The notes beneath the pieces were generated by a model. That model did no database searches. It saw only the letters and a list, made by a program, of their open reading frames with translations, and was not told the origin of the DNA. Positions 8,942 through 34,368 of a stretch of 64,000 nucleotides of DNA are shown in pieces. Origin of the DNA: Myxococcales bacterium (lineage in GTDB: Bacteria > Myxococcota > UBA727 > VGSZ01); the NCBI GenBank assembly GCA_023248635.1, contig JAHFED010000003.1, positions 62,001 to 126,000 of the forward strand, in the 5' to 3' direction. Numbering within the stretch: the first letter of the stretch is position 1; each line of letters opens with the position of its first letter. Both the position numbers and the translations under genes were made by a program.

Positions 8942-9841
8942 CTAAAATGTGAACTCGTCGGTGAGCTCGACCAGGTGCATGTTCTTGAGATGCAGCGCCG
9001 ATAGCTCTTGCTTCGTCTGCTCGTAGAACGATGGCTTCAAATGATAGACAAAGAGCGGAATGTCATCGCGCGCTTTGATCTTGCCCATCTCGGCGTGCAG
9101 GGTCTGCGGCGTGTAGTGGCCAGCGACGTCAGCGAGGGCCTGCATGTGGTTCGGGAAGCTGAGCTCGACGAACATTCCGCGCAGGTCTGGGGTCTCATTG
9201 GCAACCTGCCATAATTTCGTCGTCGGACCGGTGTCTGATGAATACAGGAACGATCCGTTTTCTCCACGGATAATCATTGCCATGGATTCGACCGGGTGCG
9301 TGACGGGTACATATTGTACCTCGTACTCGCCTGCGGCCAGGGGCGCTGCTTGGGGCACCATGGCGACGGTCTTCTTCGATGTCCCACGGGCCTTTTGAGC
9401 CGCAGCCAGCACAGGGGCGCTCTTGGCGCTGGATGACGTCGAGAGGGCGACGCCGGGCGGGGGGATGCGAAACACATCGAGCGCTTCGCGAACGTGCAGG
9501 CGCATCACTGGATTGTCGGCGGTGGGAATCTTCGTGAAGTCCGGCCACAGGTAGTTGTTGAAATAGGAGGTCTGCAGCGTTTCGGCGGTTTCGGGACCGC
9601 AGTGCAAATGAACGGGTTCTGGGCGACGACCGATGACCTGATCGGCCATCAACGCCAGGTCCTTTACGTGGTCCATGTGGCTGTGGCTGATGAGCATGTG
9701 ATCGATCTTCACCTGGTCGTTCAGGTCGAGGCTGCGACACACCGCGCCAGCATCGATGGTGATGCGTTCGTCGATGAGCATGCACGTCGTCCGATGACGA
9801 GGTGTCTCTCCTCCGTGACAGCCCAGCACCCGAACGCGCAT
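8942..9841 (-). CDS. MBL-fold metallohydrolase, cAMP-phosphodiesterase class-II-like
   Basis: 299 residues from ATG at 9841. The N-terminus (MRVRVLGCHGGE) and the metal motif SHSHMDHVKDLALM are those of the metallo-beta-lactamase fold close to class II cyclic-nucleotide phosphodiesterases. A later VTHPVESMA, SSDTGPT and the FVELSFPN strand supply the other metal and active-site positions. The true substrate cannot be told from sequence; members may cleave cyclic nucleotides or other phosphodiesters. A Ser/Ala/Lys-rich insert (about 165-190) interrupts the core and may be a loop. The frame extends upstream, but homology starts at this ATG. Confidence 0.75.
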   Translation of the reverse strand: MRVRVLGCHGGETPRHRTTCMLIDERITIDAGAVCRSLDLNDQVKIDHMLISHSHMDHVKDLALMADQVIGRRPEPVHLHCGPETAETLQTSYFNNYLWPDFTKIPTADNPVMRLHVREALDVFRIPPPGVALSTSSSAKSAPVLAAAQKARGTSKKTVAMVPQAAPLAAGEYEVQYVPVTHPVESMAMIIRGENGSFLYSSDTGPTTKLWQVANETPDLRGMFVELSFPNHMQALADVAGHYTPQTLHAEMGKIKARDDIPLFVYHLKPSFYEQTKQELSALHLKNMHLVELTDEFTF

Positions 9842-10187
9842 GGTCGACGCTCGCAGGACGAAGCAGCCGGGGTCAAGTCCGGTGGTTGGCCGCCAAGGGT
9901 GCCGCTCGACGAGGTTTGGGCCGGGCTCAACCACCAGCACTTGAGCGCTGCCAACGGCTCACCTCAGAGCATCGCACCGGGGGCCCGTGCACGTACCCAG
10001 TGATTGCCGGGAAGCGTGCGATGTGTCTAGCTGCGCCGACCTCGACGAATGCCGATGTTTGCGCTGTTGGCACGGCGCGGGGCCGATGGTTTGAGCCGTC
10101 GCCACGGCGACGACGACGACGACGACGAGCGCTGCGCGCGCACCAGCAACGACGTCACGGCCCCGTGACGGAAGGACCGACCCAAAG
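9842..10187. other. Divergent intergenic region with P2 fragments and a CGA tract
   Basis: 346 bases between two divergent genes, so it must hold both promoters, though I cannot point to a convincing -35/-10 pair. Degenerate family P2 pieces occur near 9939-9962 (TTGAGCGCTGCCAACGGCTC) and 10056-10085 (TTGGCACGGCG). A CGA/ACG trinucleotide run lies near 10107-10130. A frame across 9802-10191 is Arg-rich and without homology; I do not call it. Confidence 0.5.
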
Positions 10188-13121
10188 ATGAAGTACGCGC
10201 CGTTGCCATGGGTCCACCTCGCCGACGCTTTGCGGACCTCGCTGCGTCGGCTGCGGATCGTGCTCGAAGAACCCGCCTTCATCGCCGAGCGCACCTTTGT
10301 CCGCCTCCACGACGGGCCGCGCAGCGAATCCATCGTCGAGACCCGGCCGCTGCTGCACGGGGCCCAGACGCCGCTGTCGGCCCGCGAACGCGCGGTCATC
10401 GAGATCCTGCACGAGGCCGGGCCCAGCCACGCCAAGAAGGGTCGCTTCTCGCTCACCAAGGCCCAGGTCGGACGCCTGCTGGCCTTCGCTGCCGACGTCC
10501 CTCTTGAGGTCGAAGGCAAAGGCAGCATCGCCGTCGTCCCCCGCCCCGCTCGCATCACTGGCCGCGTGAAAGAACACGAGACGGGCACCGCTCTGGTCTT
10601 TGAGGCCGTCGACGCCGACGGCATCACCATCGACAAGCCGATGATCCTCGGCGAACGCGAAGCCTTTCTCCTCGACGATCAGCTCAAGATGTTCCGCGTC
10701 TCGCCGCCGCTGCTGCCCGGCGAAGCCCGCACCCTGCTCGAGTCCGAGCCCCTCGTGCTCGCGGGCTTGTGCACCGAAGAAGGCAAGGCTGGCTTCGAGT
10801 CGGTCACCGGCCTCGGCGCCGACCTCGCCGACCTCGTCGAAGTCGCTCGCACCCCTGAGCCCGCGCCCCGCATCGTGTTGCGGGCCATGCTCACGCGCGC
10901 CGACGACGGCCCCGGCTTTCAGCTGCGGGTGCACCTCGTCACCGAGCTCTCCGCGCGCAACGCCAGTGAGAATGGAGAATCCATCGCCGACGAGGTCGAG
11001 ATCTCGGCGCGGGGATCGATCCCTCCCGTTCACGCCGTCGAGCTGCCGCCAAAAAAGGGCGAAAAAGAGGGCGGGGCCATGCTCATCGCGCGGCCGTCGA
11101 CGCAGGAAGAGATGGCGCGCCGGGCGCTCTTTGACCTCGGCTTGCACGCTGCGGGCACCCACCGGGGCTTCTCCGCGCAGGGCGAGCCCGGACTCGATGT
11201 GCTGGTGAAGCTGGCTGGAGGCCAAGGCATCCCAAGCTTCGTCTACGTCGACAAAGACACGCTGCCGCGCATCGTGCGCTTGCCCAATGTGCCCCGCCTC
11301 AAGGCCACCACCCGCCCTGAACGCGAAGGCGACAAGCGCGGATTGCTCGATGTGCGTCTCGACATCGGCGACGAAGCCCGCGAGCTCGCGCTCAAGTTCG
11401 ACGACATCATCAAGGCCGTGCTGGCGGGGCGCCAATCGCTGCTCGTCGACGACGACACCGTGCTCGGCTTCAGCCCCGAGGCCGGTGCTGCTCTGGAGCT
11501 CATCGCCGATCAGCTCGAGCTCAAAGATGCGGGCCAGACGCGTGAGATTGGTCCCGCGGAGCTCGCGCTCTTGGTGGCTGGTCTCGAGGGACGCGTGGAG
11601 GTCGACACCGACGACGAAGAGCTCAAGAAGCGCATCGCGGAATTCCTGGCCGAGCCGCTGGACGCCGATCGCATCCTGCCCTCGATGCTGACGGCGACCT
11701 TGCGGCCCTACCAGCACGACGGCGTCGCCTGGCTGAGCCAGATGCACCGGCTCGGGGTCGGTCGCATCCTCGCCGACGACATGGGTCTCGGTAAGACGCT
11801 CATGGCCATGGCCCTGCTCGCCAAGACCAAAGAAAACGACGGCGTGAAGCCGTCCCTCGTCGTCGCTCCCACCTCGGTGCTCGACGTTTGGGTGCAAGAG
11901 GCCAAGCGCCACTGCCCCGGGCTCAACGTGCTCAAGTGGCACGGGCGCGATCGCAAAGAATCCGAAGCCGCAGCCCGCGAAGCCGACGTCGTCGTCACCT
12001 CTTATGCTTTGTTGCGCCGCGACGTCGAAGGCAGCTTGGGCAACTTGGATTTCCGCTACTTGATGCTCGACGAAGCCCAGAACGTGAAGAATTCGTCGAC
12101 GGAGGCCTGGAAAGCGGCCCGCCTGGTCAAGAGCGATCAGCGCATGGCCCTGACCGGTACCCCCATCGAAAACCGCGTCGAGGAGCTGTGGTCGATCCTC
12201 GACCTCGTTGCACCCGGGCTCTTGGGCAGCGAGCGCGCCTTCGAGCGCCGTTACGGCCGTCCCATCGCCAAGGGCGACGCCAACCGCCTCGACGAGCTGC
12301 GCAAGCGCACCCGGCCGGTGATCCTGCGCCGCAAGAAAGAAGACGTCGCCAAAGACCTGCCGCCGAAGATCGAGACCGTGCTGCGTTGCGAGATGGCGCC
12401 GGAGCAGCGCGCCCTCTACCTGCGCGTGCTCGCCGAGGTGCGCTCCGACGTGCAGAAGGCCCTGCAGGTGCACACAAGGGCCCGCGCCCGAGCACCGATC
12501 CTCGCTGCGCTGATGCGCTTGCGTCAGGTGTGCTGCGATCCCCGTTTGCTCGGCGACGACGAACGCTTCCAGGCCAAGGGCGTGGCGTCGTCGAAGCTGC
12601 AGCTCTTCGAAGAGACCATGGTCGAGGCCCTGGCCCAGCCGGAGCGCAAGGTCATCGTGTTTTCGCAGTTCGTCGAGATGCAGAAGATCTTGCACGAGGT
12701 GCTGGAGAAGATCGGCATCAACAACGCCCTGTGGTTGCACGGTGCCACCAAGGACCGCGGTGACGTCGTCGCCAAGTTCCAGGAGGCCACTGGACCGCGG
12801 GTCATCGTCGTCTCGCTCAAGGCCGGCGGCACCGGCGTCACCCTCACGGCCGCAGACACCGTCGTGCACTACGACCCCTGGTGGAACCCCGCCGTCGAAG
12901 ACCAAGCGACGGACCGCGCGCACCGCATCGGCCAGACGAAGACGGTGCACGTCATCAAGCTCGCCTGCTCCGACACCCTCGAGGAGCGCATGCTCGACCT
13001 CGGCGAAGACAAGAGAGCGGCGGCAGAGAGCGTGCTCGGCAAGGATGGCCAGGGTCCCAAGAGCCTCAGCCTCGAAGAAATCGAAGGCATGCTCGACGCC
13101 GAAGCCTCACGGGGATTCTGA
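10188..13121 (+). CDS. SNF2-family DNA-dependent ATPase/helicase
   Basis: 977 residues. The C-terminal 480 residues are a full SNF2 motor: LRPYQHDGVAWL (motif Q region), Walker A DDMGLGKT, VVAPTSVLDVW (Ia), DEAQ as motif II, LTGTPIENR (III), VIVFSQFVEMQ (IV), LKAGGTGVTLT (V) and DRAHRIGQ (VI). The N-terminal half is a long lineage-type extension of unknown fold that is typical of the HepA/RapA-like bacterial group. Such proteins translocate on duplex DNA and remodel protein-DNA or transcription complexes. The ATG follows a divergent promoter region and the gene stands alone. Confidence 0.9.
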   Translation: MKYAPLPWVHLADALRTSLRRLRIVLEEPAFIAERTFVRLHDGPRSESIVETRPLLHGAQTPLSARERAVIEILHEAGPSHAKKGRFSLTKAQVGRLLAFAADVPLEVEGKGSIAVVPRPARITGRVKEHETGTALVFEAVDADGITIDKPMILGEREAFLLDDQLKMFRVSPPLLPGEARTLLESEPLVLAGLCTEEGKAGFESVTGLGADLADLVEVARTPEPAPRIVLRAMLTRADDGPGFQLRVHLVTELSARNASENGESIADEVEISARGSIPPVHAVELPPKKGEKEGGAMLIARPSTQEEMARRALFDLGLHAAGTHRGFSAQGEPGLDVLVKLAGGQGIPSFVYVDKDTLPRIVRLPNVPRLKATTRPEREGDKRGLLDVRLDIGDEARELALKFDDIIKAVLAGRQSLLVDDDTVLGFSPEAGAALELIADQLELKDAGQTREIGPAELALLVAGLEGRVEVDTDDEELKKRIAEFLAEPLDADRILPSMLTATLRPYQHDGVAWLSQMHRLGVGRILADDMGLGKTLMAMALLAKTKENDGVKPSLVVAPTSVLDVWVQEAKRHCPGLNVLKWHGRDRKESEAAAREADVVVTSYALLRRDVEGSLGNLDFRYLMLDEAQNVKNSSTEAWKAARLVKSDQRMALTGTPIENRVEELWSILDLVAPGLLGSERAFERRYGRPIAKGDANRLDELRKRTRPVILRRKKEDVAKDLPPKIETVLRCEMAPEQRALYLRVLAEVRSDVQKALQVHTRARARAPILAALMRLRQVCCDPRLLGDDERFQAKGVASSKLQLFEETMVEALAQPERKVIVFSQFVEMQKILHEVLEKIGINNALWLHGATKDRGDVVAKFQEATGPRVIVVSLKAGGTGVTLTAADTVVHYDPWWNPAVEDQATDRAHRIGQTKTVHVIKLACSDTLEERMLDLGEDKRAAAESVLGKDGQGPKSLSLEEIEGMLDAEASRGF

Positions 13122-26640: not shown

Positions 26641-26766
26641 CTGTGCCAACGGCTCAAAGCAGGAAGCACTTCCCCGTCGGCGACGCTCGTTTTCTTTTCC
26701 CGCGCTCGCTGGTCAGGTCCGGTCCCAGCGTCCTGAAGCGCCGACGGTTGAGCCGTTGGCACCGCC
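26641..26766. repeat. Half and single copies of family P2
   Basis: GTGCCAACGGCTCAAAGCAG at 26643-26662 carries the right arm and linker of P2. TTGAGCCGTTGGCACC at 26748-26763 is an inverted copy. They flank the leader of the Gly-Glu repeat lipoprotein and could pair over about 100 bases. Confidence 0.65.
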
Positions 26767-26789
26767 AACAGAACTTCGCCGAGGCCCCG

Positions 26790-28211
<1,422 letters not shown>

Positions 28212-28225
28212 AGGCCCCAGGAATG

Positions 28226-28439
28226 TTCATCGCCTGGCGGCGATGAATTCACCCACAGCGCTTCGCCTGTCGGTGAATTGTCCACAGGTTCATCGCCTGG
28301 CGGCGATGAATTCACCCACAGCGCTTCGCCTGTCGGTGAATTGTCCACAGGTTCATCGCCTGGCGGCGATGAATTCACCGACAGCGCTTCGCCTGTCGGT
28401 GAATTGTCCACAGGTTCATCGCCTGGCGGCGATGAATTG
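28226..28439. repeat. Family P3, 63-base tandem repeat (four units)
   Basis: Units start at 28226, 28289, 28352 and 28415 (last one partial), exactly 63 bases apart. Each has two palindromes: TTCATCGCC-TGGC-GGCGATGAA and TTCACCGACAG...CTGTCGGTGAA, then TTGTCCACAGG. The unit is 21 codons and has no stop in one frame, where it reads STGSSPGGDEFTDSASPVGEL-like. It joins the end of the lipoprotein gene to the HisH-like gene. The same unit occurs in the PLD gene at 34171-34332. Confidence 0.95.
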
Positions 28440-28472: not shown

Positions 28473-29171
28473 GTGCCCGCGCCCACGGTCCTCGTGCTCG
28501 ACTATCCCATCGCCCGGACGCGACGTCTGCTCTCGGCGCTGGCTGCCGTCGGCGTCGAGGCCCGGCTCACCGCCACGCCCTTGGCCGCGCGACCGGCCGA
28601 CATCTTGGTGGTCCCCGACGGCGACGACGACGACCGCGCGCTCTCACGAGGAGTGTCAGCAGGCGTCGTCGATGCCATCGCCGGCCATGTTGCCAAGGAG
28701 CGGCCCCTGCTCGCCATCGGACTGGGCCTCTGTTTCCTCCTCAGCGGCCGCACCCACCCCTCGATGCCCATGGGCGCCGACATCTTCCGCGCGCCGGTGC
28801 AGCGCTTCGATCCCCGCATGGCCGACGAAGGCGAAAGACCCCTGCTCGCACCCCACGTGGGAGCCTCGTTCGTCGTCGGCCTCGATCGGCAACCGACGCT
28901 CTCGGCCATGGTGAAGAAGGGCGACGCCGGCGTTTGGCTCACCTTTCGCCACCGCCTGTGCGCCCCCGCCCGCATCCACCAGGCCGACGTCGCTGTGGGG
29001 CACCACGGTGTCCCCTTTGCGGCGGCCATCTGGCGGGGCGCGACCTTGGCCGTACAGTTTCTTCCCGAGCAGTCCGGCCCCGTAGGCCTCGAGATGCTGC
29101 GGGCCTTCTTCGGCGCCGCCGGACAGCCCATGGCAGCCCAGCTCAGCAGCCAGCCCAAGGTCGTGTCATGA
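28473..29171 (+). CDS. HisH-like protein lacking the glutaminase catalytic residues
   Basis: 232 residues from GTG 28473. The whole chain follows the pattern of HisH, the glutaminase subunit of imidazole glycerol phosphate synthase: VLVLDYPIARTRRLLSALAA at the start, RPLLAIGLGLCFLL where HisH has the nucleophile elbow GICLGMQ, APHVG, GVPFAAAIWRGATLAVQF and EQSGPVGLEMLRAFF. The nucleophile Cys is Gly83 and the catalytic His of QFHPE is Leu197 (QFLPEQ); only Glu199 remains. Glutamine hydrolysis by the known mechanism is therefore not expected. The frame is open back to 28278 through the P3 array, so a longer product is possible. Confidence 0.75.
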   Translation: MPAPTVLVLDYPIARTRRLLSALAAVGVEARLTATPLAARPADILVVPDGDDDDRALSRGVSAGVVDAIAGHVAKERPLLAIGLGLCFLLSGRTHPSMPMGADIFRAPVQRFDPRMADEGERPLLAPHVGASFVVGLDRQPTLSAMVKKGDAGVWLTFRHRLCAPARIHQADVAVGHHGVPFAAAIWRGATLAVQFLPEQSGPVGLEMLRAFFGAAGQPMAAQLSSQPKVVS

Positions 29172-29439
29172 GCACCGCCCTGCAACGGTCTCCAACACCG
29201 AGACGCAAAGCGGGCCGCGGCCATCGAAGCGCTCGTTGCCCTCGAGCTCTGCCGACGCTGACCGGTTCATTTCCCCGGGCCCGGGCGCCGACGACGATCT
29301 CCGTCGCCGGCGACAGCTCGAGGGAGCGCGCCTACACCAAGGGCAGGGGTCCAGCGGGGTTGCCCGAGGCCTTCTCCGCGCGAGGTGCGTTCTCCGCGCG
29401 AAGCGCGTGGAGCACACGGAGCCCCGCACGGGGAAGGAC
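29172..29439. repeat. Intergenic P4 repeat block
   Basis: 268 bases between the HisH-like and HisF-like genes. About 29336-29420 holds CCAAGGGCAGGGGTCCAGCG, then CTTCTCCGCGCGAGG and GTTCTCCGCGCGAAGCGCG, the blocks of family P4 in the opposite order to 40567-40680. A frame starting with ATG at 29168 crosses it but encodes only repeat-derived Arg/Ala-rich sequence. Confidence 0.65.
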
Positions 29440-30228
29440 ATGACGCTCGCGCGGCGGCTCTGCGCTCTGCTCGACGTCGACGAACATGGTCGACCCGGCC
29501 GCCCCTACACCCGGCACGGTTTGGACGCGACCTTCGTCGAGGCCATTGTTTCTTTCATGGTGCAAGACGGCGTCGACGAAGTGTGGCTGCACGCGATGCA
29601 TCCCAAGGCGTCGCAGACGTCGACGCCGGCGGATGTGAAATTGCTCTTCGAGCCTTTGGGCAGTCTCGAGCGGCGCGTGTTCGCCCCCATCGTCGCCTGG
29701 GCTCCCATCGGCAGCCCCGCCGATGCCCGCCTGCTCTTGGAGTTCGGCGCGGACCGCATCGTCGTCGACGCCAACCGCGGGCTGCCCGATCCCGTGGGCT
29801 TCGTCGAGCGCATCGTCGAAGCCACCGGGCCGGATCGCGTCTGCTGCGCCGTGCACGCGCGGCGCGTCATCGACGACAAGGGCACGGCCTTCGAGCTGGT
29901 CTCGCCCTCTCTCGAAGGCAGCGGCATCAACGCGGTCTCGCTCGTCGACCGCTTGACCGGCGTGGGGGCTTGCGAGGTCCTGCTCGTGCCCGTCAAGGGC
30001 GCCACCCAGGGCCGCGCGTTGCACGACGGGGAGCTCATCGAGTTGTGTGCGCAGACCTTGTCCTTGCCCCTGCTGGCCCACGCCGACGACGTCGAAGCAG
30101 CGGATGTGGCCACCGCGTTGCTGATGGGCGCCGACGGCATCGTCAGTCGCTTGTTTTCGGGCGGGCGGCCCGGCTTCGACGAGGTGAAGAGGGCGCTGAG
30201 CGACTATGGGCTTCCCATTCGTTCGTGA
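29440..30228 (+). CDS. HisF-like protein lacking catalytic and phosphate-binding residues
   Basis: 262 residues; GGGAAGG precedes the ATG. The length and start (LARRLCALLDVDEHGRPG) match HisF, the cyclase subunit of imidazole glycerol phosphate synthase, a TIM barrel. D12 in LLDV corresponds to the first catalytic Asp (D11 of Thermotoga HisF). The second one (D130 in IDAKR) is His139 in AVHARR, the SIDRDGT loop is replaced by PVKGATQG, and the phosphate loops GGG and SGGAG are WAP and HADDV. The scaffold seems to be kept without the known chemistry. It follows the HisH-like gene on the same strand, so the pair may still form a complex. Confidence 0.75.
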   Translation: MTLARRLCALLDVDEHGRPGRPYTRHGLDATFVEAIVSFMVQDGVDEVWLHAMHPKASQTSTPADVKLLFEPLGSLERRVFAPIVAWAPIGSPADARLLLEFGADRIVVDANRGLPDPVGFVERIVEATGPDRVCCAVHARRVIDDKGTAFELVSPSLEGSGINAVSLVDRLTGVGACEVLLVPVKGATQGRALHDGELIELCAQTLSLPLLAHADDVEAADVATALLMGADGIVSRLFSGGRPGFDEVKRALSDYGLPIRS

Positions 30229-31941: not shown

Positions 31942-34368
31942 ATGCCAGCTTCGTCCATCGGCGCGCGCTTCCCAGGCAGCGCAGCCCGCCCGGCGGTGAA
32001 ACAACGGACGCCCATCGTCGTCGCGCCGGGCGGCCCTGCGACGTCAAATGTGTGGCGGGTGGAGCGGGCCACGCGGGCCGCAGTGCTCGTCGACGCCGAC
32101 GCCTATTTCTGCGCGCTCCACCGGGCACTGCAGGGGGCGCGCTCGCAGATCCTCTTGTTGGGTTGGGACATCGACAGCCGTCTCTGCCTCCGCCGCGATC
32201 TCGACGAAGAAGGCCAGCGGCGGGCGACGCTGGGCCCCTTCCTCGACGGCATCGCGCGCCGCGGGGTGAGCGTGCACCTGTTGAGCTGGGACTTCGTGCC
32301 CCTCTTTGCCTTCGAGCGCGAGTCGCTCTCGGCGGCGAAGCTGGACTGGCAGACACACCACCGCATGCGCTTCGAGCTCGATGGAATGCACCCGCTCGGG
32401 GCGTCGCACCACCAGAAAGTCGTCGTCATCGACGACGCGGTCGCCTTCTCGGGGGGCATCGATCTCTGCGGTGCGCGTTGGGACACCCCAGCCCACGTCA
32501 TCGACGATCCCCGGCGCCTGGATCCCCCGGCCTCGCAGCACAAGCCCTTCCACGACGTGCAAATGGCGGTCGAGGGAGCGGCGGCCGCGGCCCTGGGCGA
32601 CCTTGCCCGCGAGCGCTGGCGGCGGGCCACGGGCGAGAAGCTGCGAGCACCAGCGCGGCCGTCGACGTCGCCGTGGCCTGCGGAGCTCAAGGCGGATTTT
32701 GTCGACGTCGACGTCGCCATCGCGCGCACCGAGCCCCTCTTTGAGGATCGCGCCCCCGTGCGGGAGGTGGAGCAGCTGCACCTCGACGGGATCCGGCTGG
32801 CCCGCTCCGCGGTCTACCTGGAGAACCAGTACCTGACGTCGCGCTCGATCCGCGAGGCGCTGACGACGAGCCTGCGCGGGACCCACGGGCCCGACATCGT
32901 CATCGTCGTCCCCCGCGTGTGCTGCGGCTGGTTCGAGGAGCGCACCATGGGCCTGCGGCGGGCCGAGCTGCTGCATGCCCTTGCCAAGAGCGACGCGCAC
33001 CAGCGGCTCTCGGTGCTGGCCCCGATCCTCTCGCACGATGAAAACGCGCCTCGTCTCAACGTGCACGGCAAGGTCTCCATCGTCGACGATCGTTTGCTGC
33101 GCGTCGGCTCCGCCAACCTGTCGAACCGCTCGATGGGGCTCGACACGGAATGCGATCTCGCCATCGACGCGGTCAACGACGACGGCGGCGTCGACGACCA
33201 CATCGCCCGCGGCATCATCGGCGTGCGCGCACGGCTGCTCGCCGAGCACCTCGATGTCGACGTCGACCTCGTCCAGCCTGCCATCGAGGCCCTGGGCTTG
33301 CGCGGCGCCATCGCTGCGTTGCAGGGGCGCGATCGAACGCTCATCGCCGTCCACGACGCCGACCTGGGCTTGCGCGAGATCCTGCTGCCGCTGGCGGTCT
33401 TTGCCGATCCCGAGGCGCCGACGCTGCTGGATCCTCTCACGGCGCGGGGCTGGAGCGGCTTGGGTCCCCCGCGGCGACGGCTGCGGGCCGCCATCGCCGT
33501 CGTCGTCGCCATCGTGTTGGTGCTCACAGCGATCGTGGTGTGGCGCTCGACGTCGCTGGCATCGGTCCTCGCTCCCGCCCGCGTGCACGAGCTCCTGGGC
33601 GGTGACCCCGGACCCTGCATCGGCATCGCCGTCGTCGTCGGCGGCGGCCTGGTGTTCTTTCCCCTCACGCTGCTGGCGCTGACGTCGGCGTTGGTGTTTT
33701 CCCCTCTCGCCGCCTTTGGAGTGAGTTGGGTGGGGGCCCTGCTCAGCTGTCTGCTGTCTTATGGCATCGGCCGAATCATGGGTGCGCGGGCCCTCACCCG
33801 ACTGGTCGGGCGCCGACCCTTGCGCACCGCCGCCCGACTCGACGGGCGTGGCATCTGGGCCACCGCCGGCCTGCGACTCGCACCGGTGTCGCCCTTCACG
33901 CTCGTGAACCTCTGCGCCGGAGCCGCGCGGGTGCGGCTCCCGCAATTCCTCTTGGGCTCGGCTCTCGGCCTCCTGCCTTCGGTGTTGCTGCTGACGCTGC
34001 TCGGACAGCTGCTCGGGTTGTTGGTGAACAAGGTCTGGCACGTCGAAGTCGCCGCCATCGTCGTCGTCGCTGGCCTTTGTGCCACGGGTGTGGCCGCCCT
34101 GCTGTTTCGCCGTCGACGACGGGGCCGGGCGGAGGCCGGCGCTCCCCCGAACCTGGATCTCCCGCCGCCAGAATTGTCTACAGGTTCATCGCCTGGCGGC
34201 GATGAACTCACCGACAGCGCTTCGCGTGTCGGTGAATTGTCTACAGGTTCATCGCCTGGCGGCGATGAATTCACCGACAGCGCTTCGCGTGTCGGTGAAT
34301 TGTCTACAGGTTCATCGCCTGGCGGCGATGAATTCTCCGCCCGGCGGGGCGGCGTGGCGTCGGCATGA
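31942..34368 (+). CDS. Phospholipase D / VTT (DedA-like) membrane fusion
   Basis: 808 residues. Two HKD motifs form the phospholipase D active site: HHQKVVVIDDAVAFSGG at about 154 and VHGKVSIVDDRLLRVGSANLS at about 373. After a linker, residues about 505-725 are a membrane domain of the VTT/SNARE-associated (DedA-like) type (LTLLALTSALVFSPLAAFGVS, RLAPVSPFTLVNLCAGA). The C-terminal 60 residues are three in-frame copies of the 21-residue P3 repeat and are probably not structured. The likely role is hydrolysis or transfer of phospholipid head groups at the inner membrane. The EEP-family gene overlaps the stop. Confidence 0.88.
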   Translation: MPASSIGARFPGSAARPAVKQRTPIVVAPGGPATSNVWRVERATRAAVLVDADAYFCALHRALQGARSQILLLGWDIDSRLCLRRDLDEEGQRRATLGPFLDGIARRGVSVHLLSWDFVPLFAFERESLSAAKLDWQTHHRMRFELDGMHPLGASHHQKVVVIDDAVAFSGGIDLCGARWDTPAHVIDDPRRLDPPASQHKPFHDVQMAVEGAAAAALGDLARERWRRATGEKLRAPARPSTSPWPAELKADFVDVDVAIARTEPLFEDRAPVREVEQLHLDGIRLARSAVYLENQYLTSRSIREALTTSLRGTHGPDIVIVVPRVCCGWFEERTMGLRRAELLHALAKSDAHQRLSVLAPILSHDENAPRLNVHGKVSIVDDRLLRVGSANLSNRSMGLDTECDLAIDAVNDDGGVDDHIARGIIGVRARLLAEHLDVDVDLVQPAIEALGLRGAIAALQGRDRTLIAVHDADLGLREILLPLAVFADPEAPTLLDPLTARGWSGLGPPRRRLRAAIAVVVAIVLVLTAIVVWRSTSLASVLAPARVHELLGGDPGPCIGIAVVVGGGLVFFPLTLLALTSALVFSPLAAFGVSWVGALLSCLLSYGIGRIMGARALTRLVGRRPLRTAARLDGRGIWATAGLRLAPVSPFTLVNLCAGAARVRLPQFLLGSALGLLPSVLLLTLLGQLLGLLVNKVWHVEVAAIVVVAGLCATGVAALLFRRRRRGRAEAGAPPNLDLPPPELSTGSSPGGDELTDSASRVGELSTGSSPGGDEFTDSASRVGELSTGSSPGGDEFSARRGGVASA
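34171..34332. repeat. Family P3, 63-base tandem repeat inside the PLD gene
   Basis: Units start at 34185, 34248 and 34311, again 63 bases apart, with the same two palindromes as at 28226-28439 but CGTGTCGG instead of CCTGTCGG and CTACAGG for CCACAGG. They are translated in frame (GELSTGSSPGGDEFTDSASR-type) as the C-terminus of the PLD fusion. Confidence 0.95.

Follow-up and report, generated by a model that had tools for sequence, protein, structure and literature searches.

The window analysed here is a stretch of 64,000 nucleotides from a Myxococcales bacterium, and all coordinates below are positions in it. Near its middle lie two adjacent genes whose products resemble the two subunits of imidazole glycerol phosphate synthase (IGPS), the glutaminase HisH and the cyclase HisF. 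We refer to these genes and their products as psiHisH and psiHisF. The features of the locus are as follows.

28225..28438, no strand assigned: a 63-bp tandem palindromic repeat directly 5' of psiHisH, which belongs to a genome-wide family and is probably outside the system
28473..29171, + strand: psiHisH, a HisH-like pseudo-glutaminase of 232 aa with a GTG start
29172..29439, + strand: a 268-bp spacer between psiHisH and psiHisF, peculiar to the window's genome
29440..30228, + strand: psiHisF, a HisF-like pseudo-cyclase of 262 aa, with an ATG preceded by GGGGAAGGAC

The gene pair and its family ties

Both frames are open over the 232 and 262 codons that the first-pass annotation had given them, and the start position of psiHisH is matched by its orthologues. 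The HisH/HisF pattern noticed in that annotation is genuine but remote. Against the NCBIfam profile TIGR01855, psiHisH scores 53.2 bits (E=3e-14, residues 6-213), which is under the curated cut-off of 105.4 bits, and psiHisF scores 46.1 bits against TIGR00735 (E=4e-12, residues 3-261), where the curated cut-off is 294.55 bits. There is also a weak match of psiHisF to TIGR03572 (WbuZ/HisF2) at 36.3 bits, for a cut-off of 299.7 bits. In Pfam, the GATase family does not match psiHisH and psiHisF stays below the cut-off of His_biosynth; the libraries of defence and phage genes gave no meaningful match. When the PDB was searched with phmmer, HisH chains ranked first for psiHisH and HisF chains for psiHisF.

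An AlphaFold (AF2) model of psiHisF, built from an alignment with four orthologues, has a pLDDT of 86.6 and a pTM of 0.87. The best 50 PDB matches listed for this model are all HisF or HisF-based designs, with a TM of about 0.8, and the predicted structure is the (beta-alpha)8 barrel of HisF rather than an unrelated fold, which would have spoken against the first-pass annotation. The single-sequence AlphaFold model of psiHisH has a pLDDT of only 37, and its assignment to the HisH fold rests on sequence.

The first-pass annotation also described repeats flanking each gene. The tandem repeat 5' of psiHisH is indeed there, but none lies between the genes, and the next copies of the 63-bp repeat are found at 34185-34332, 4 kb past psiHisF. 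The repeat unit is built of palindromes, TTCATCGCCTGGCGGCGATGAA and TTCACCGACAG...CTGTCGGTGAA. The 22-bp palindrome has 156 exact copies in the window's genome, against none for a reversed control, and at the ends of some genes it forms part of the reading frame (STGSSPGGDEF). The repeats were rejected as part of the system because of this genome-wide abundance and because the frames of the orthologues overlap at the gene junction. It is also worth mentioning that the protein predicted at positions 26643-28211 contains a long low-complexity stretch, EGEGEGEG, and matches nothing in Pfam.

Orthologues, selection and genomic setting

Besides the window's own genome (G000), five genomes carry an orthologous adjacent pair, all of them within one order of uncultured Myxococcota. 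The identities to the window's psiHisH and psiHisF are 73 and 68% in a genome of the same genus (G002), 66 and 52% in one of the same family (G003), and 56 and 36% (G005) or 36 and 29% (G007) in two of the same order; the sixth pair, in G013, was added by a search with a psiHisH profile. In 195 genomes of the phylum, the six psiHisH proteins score 329-369 bits with this profile (the window's protein 369), compared with at most 95 for any other HisH. When 84,980 species genomes were scanned with a pattern as seed, only four of these six pairs came up, by a method that misses divergent members, including that of G013. By maximum likelihood the six psiHisH form one clade with a support of 100/100, and its internal order fits the grouping of the genomes. 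Three relatives, G001, G004 and G014, lack the pair, which is therefore not indispensable.

Between the window and G002, dN/dS (NG86) is 0.24 for psiHisH and 0.32 for psiHisF, with a dS of 0.8-0.9 that is near saturation. In canonical his-operon pairs HisF is better conserved (54-69%) than HisH (44-53%); the psi pairs show the opposite, and the better conservation of psiHisH suggests that this protein carries most of the function.

The pair usually follows prmC, whose product methylates a glutamine of peptide release factors. The order is carD - prmC - murA - psiH - psiF - yqeY - dnaG - rpoD in G013, with one small unidentified gene after carD, and prmC - psiH - psiF - yqeY - dnaG - rpoD in G005 and G007. 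In G002, prmC is directly upstream of psiH; in G003 a few kb separate the pair from prmC on its upstream side, and again from yqeY-dnaG on its downstream side. Direct adjacency to prmC has been lost in G003 and in the window's genome, where the prmC...rpoD order is broken around the pair. The spacer between the two genes sets the window's genome apart in the same region, the frames overlapping by 4 bp in G002, G003, G005 and G013 and by 14 bp in G007. The genes for an SNF2 helicase and a class-II phosphodiesterase (8942-13121; L056), 15 kb away in the window, adjoin the pair in G002, a local rearrangement. No WbpG-like amidotransferase gene adjoins the psi pair in the regions read. Since G004 and G014 have prmC-(murA)-yqeY-dnaG-rpoD without the pair, it is either dispensable or has been lost there.

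The window's genome assembly (6.5 Mb, 96.7% complete) contains only two PF00977 (HisA/HisF) genes, both on other contigs and each beside a HisH gene and a WbpG-like gene, which bears out the earlier remark that no other his gene is near. These HisH2/HisF2-type cassettes, at C130:26418-27706 and C133:54989-56310, suggest two sugar-amidation pathways, and they are all that the proposed search for a second hisH and hisF brought up in this genome. HisB and HisD were not found in G000, G003, G005 or G007; an assembly gap could account for the absence of a single operon from G000, but the same absence recurs in the other three. Genuine his genes occur in addition to the psi pair in two genomes, G002 and G013; the his operon of G013 has an intact HisH and HisF and lies apart from the pair. 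Among 14 genomes of the window's order these are the only two in which HisB was found, pointing to a widespread loss of histidine synthesis.

The missing HisB and HisD could be taken to mean that the pair is a decaying remnant of a lost histidine operon. This is highly improbable, and we have rejected it: the frames are open in six lineages, which share identical replacements and form a deep clade, the low dN/dS and the conservation contradict decay, and in G013 and G002 the pair co-occurs with his genes. The view that these are selected pseudoenzymes and not decaying genes, already put forward from the window's letters, has thus gained five more pairs with the same Cys to Gly and His to Leu changes, the fully supported clade, the dN/dS comparison in a relative that had been called for, and the retention of the pair in the housekeeping run of G013, a genome with an intact his operon as well. 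The pair thus bears the mark of a pseudoenzyme under selection, with catalytic residues lost in frames that the orthologues conserve.

Catalytic sites and the docking face

Residues of the six psiHisH were compared with 38 canonical HisH sequences, and those of psiHisF with canonical HisF. The positions that matter most are given below.

28617..28619, + strand: codon of Asp49, in place of oxyanion-strand Gly50 of HisH (Asp in all six psi, Gly in all 38 canonical)
28719..28721, + strand: codon of Gly83, in place of the nucleophile Cys84 of HisH (Gly in all six psi, Cys in all 38 canonical)
28809..28844, + strand: an insertion specific to psi, FDxRMxDExERPL, at about residues 113-124 (most canonical HisH have a gap here; M116, D118, P123 and L124 invariant in psi)
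29061..29063, + strand: codon of Leu197, in place of the catalytic His178 of HisH (Leu in all six psi, His in all 38 canonical)
29455..29457, + strand: codon of Arg6, the gate Arg5 of HisF, kept in 6/6 psi
29575..29580, + strand: codons of Asp46-Glu47, Asp45 and the gate Glu46 of HisF, kept in 6/6 psi
29584..29586, + strand: codon of Trp49, in place of HisF Val48, a proposed tunnel plug (Trp in all six psi; most canonical have T, V or C)
29755..29757, + strand: codon of Arg106, the gate Lys99 of HisF, a conservative change (Arg in all six psi, Lys in 29 of 30 canonical)
29854..29856, + strand: codon of His139, in place of the catalytic Asp130 of HisF (H, H, S, N, Y and P across the six psi)
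29974..29976, + strand: codon of Glu179, the gate Glu167 of HisF, kept in 6/6 psi and 30/30 canonical

HisH positions follow the T. maritima numbering; the reference sequence in the alignment is one residue short somewhere after Cys84, so that later positions come out one lower there, with the catalytic His at 177 and the following Pro at 178, and the assignment of the catalytic His to Leu is carried by the motif QFHPE versus QFLPE, not by the position number. For HisF, the lists of gate and catalytic residues reflect general knowledge of the enzyme rather than one published table.

The triad C84/H178/E180 of HisH, the hN12-fD98 contact to HisF and the part played by G50/V51 have been described (PMC8115485, PMC12828452). 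In all six psiHisH the Cys-His-Glu triad reads Gly, Leu, Glu, with the Glu retained, and the alignment agrees with Gly83 and Leu197 as first reported. The PGVG oxyanion strand is PDGD-like with its Gly50 changed to Asp throughout, and Asn12, present in 38/38 canonical sequences, is Arg in five of the six. In psiHisF the replacement of the second catalytic Asp by His139 had been correctly read. The Asp pair is gone as a pair: Asp11 is kept in two of the six, both of the window's genus, and Asp130 in none. The two phosphate-binding loops, said before to be missing, are lost with their GGG and SGG motifs (G80-G82, N103/T104, S201-G203). HisF Gln123, which has been reported to catch the carboxylate of Gln (PMC9052757), is Asp in five psiHisF and Gly in one. 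The catalytic face of psiHisF holds almost no polar invariant residue. Judged from these alignments, the active sites of IGPS are lost, with a broken triad, an Asp for the oxyanion Gly, and neither the cyclase Asp pair nor the phosphate sites.

What has been kept in psiHisF lies elsewhere. None of the six departs from HisF at R5, D45, E46, E167 or D219, K99 is always Arg, and D98 is found in five of the six; the position of T78 is Val. Counting positions kept in at least five of the six, all seven at the gate and docking face qualify, but none of the 20 that serve catalysis or phosphate binding (Fisher p=1e-6). Of the 68 positions that canonical HisF conserves, the gate residues are kept in 4/4 cases and the others in 8/64 (p=6e-4). 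R5, E46 and E167 are the members of the ammonia gate besides K99. V48, two residues past E46 on strand 2, should point into the barrel, and the Trp in its place may block the tunnel. K99 has been named as a gate member (PMC10115891). The conserved HisH-docking face and gate, set against the variable catalytic face, argue for a psiHisF-psiHisH complex. Some of these residues may, however, have been kept for barrel stability instead, and since psiHisF varies widely, with 20-35% identity between distant members, the docking argument rests on few residues.

The same gate and docking face could be cited in favour of an active IGPS with an unusual mechanism. Such an enzyme is barely conceivable here: it would have to work after the loss of the nucleophile, the general base, the oxyanion Gly, the Gln-binding Q123, both cyclase Asp and the phosphate sites, the remaining pathway was not found in four genomes, and G013 has a true HisH/HisF pair.

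A new enzyme deserves more consideration, although we find it doubtful. One protein, probably psiHisH, would have acquired a new active site made of residues that are invariant in the psi clade only (e.g. Cys163, His177, Arg159, Asp49). Many such invariants do occur in psiHisH, R167 and W155 among them. They are not the old triad, though, and they match no known chemistry; invariance is no proof of catalysis, and the bare catalytic face of psiHisF offers no help.

A probable non-catalytic pair and its known relatives

The reading that we favour, and consider probable, is a pseudoenzyme heterodimer under selection, derived from a hisH-hisF pair that was duplicated in an ancestor of this Myxococcota order. 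In such a heterodimer psiHisF would still dock psiHisH through the bottom of the barrel, by way of R6, D46, E47, R106, E179 and D232, and no ammonia would be transferred because of the invariant Trp that fills the barrel near the gate. The better conserved partner, psiHisH, would bear the function by means of a rebuilt pocket, where the glutaminase site used to be, and of the clade-specific motifs VPDG, FDxRMxDExERPLxxPHxG, FRHRLCAPARVP, AHHGVPFAGA and FLPExSG. A binding role is what we infer for the pair; most likely it binds or regulates without catalysis, as a module whose genes are expressed together with prmC and the neighbouring information-processing genes. The tie to prmC or the other neighbours is itself an inferred one and may reflect a housekeeping expression unit only. 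We can offer a bolder version tentatively, as a possibility that we think unlikely: a two-enzyme ammonia-channelling complex turned into a non-catalytic two-subunit sensor or adaptor, its interface kept, its tunnel plugged and its glutaminase pocket rebuilt, which is wired to the prmC-led housekeeping cluster and may link growth, or the termination of translation, to a metabolite.

The target of the pair could also be a canonical homologue, with the pair binding and tuning genuine IGPS or HisH2/HisF2 enzymes, as PDX1.2 does with PDX1. The face of psiHisF that is kept could bind a canonical HisH, and other HisH proteins are present in G000, G002, G003 and G013. We consider this improbable nonetheless, as G005, which is 96% complete, has the pair with no other HisH match, HisB or HisD, the same is seen in G007, though at only 70% completeness, and in G013 the his genes are at a different locus from the pair.

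For both allostery and ammonia channelling, HisH/HisF is a textbook model. A naturally occurring paralogue from which both chemistries have been removed and in which the interface is kept would separate the residues required for docking from those required for catalysis, and the pair may show how an enzyme complex becomes a signalling or scaffold device. It also cautions against annotating such genes as hisH and hisF in genomes that possibly lack histidine synthesis. The literature searched held nothing relevant on IGPS pseudoenzymes or dead HisH paralogues and no description of this pair.

Three known systems invite comparison. With IGPS of the T. maritima type the psi pair shares both families by sequence, the modelled HisF fold, the adjacency and order of the genes, and the docking and gate residues of HisF; it differs in having no glutaminase triad, oxyanion strand, cyclase Asp pair or phosphate sites, and in its barrel Trp, its psi-specific HisH insertion and its location outside the his operon. 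The HisH2/HisF2 (WbuZ-type) sugar-amidation pairs, of which the window's genome has two cassettes, are likewise HisH/HisF paralogues outside his operons, but they keep the Cys and His of HisH and most residues of the HisF catalytic face, and they adjoin WbpG-like genes. The plant pseudoenzymes PDX1.2 and TSB-like (PMC6829848, PMC12727527) are, like the psi pair, dead paralogues of a multi-subunit metabolic enzyme that have been retained by selection. In those cases a single dead subunit acts on an active partner, whereas here the two subunits of a pair are both dead and an active partner is missing in some cases.
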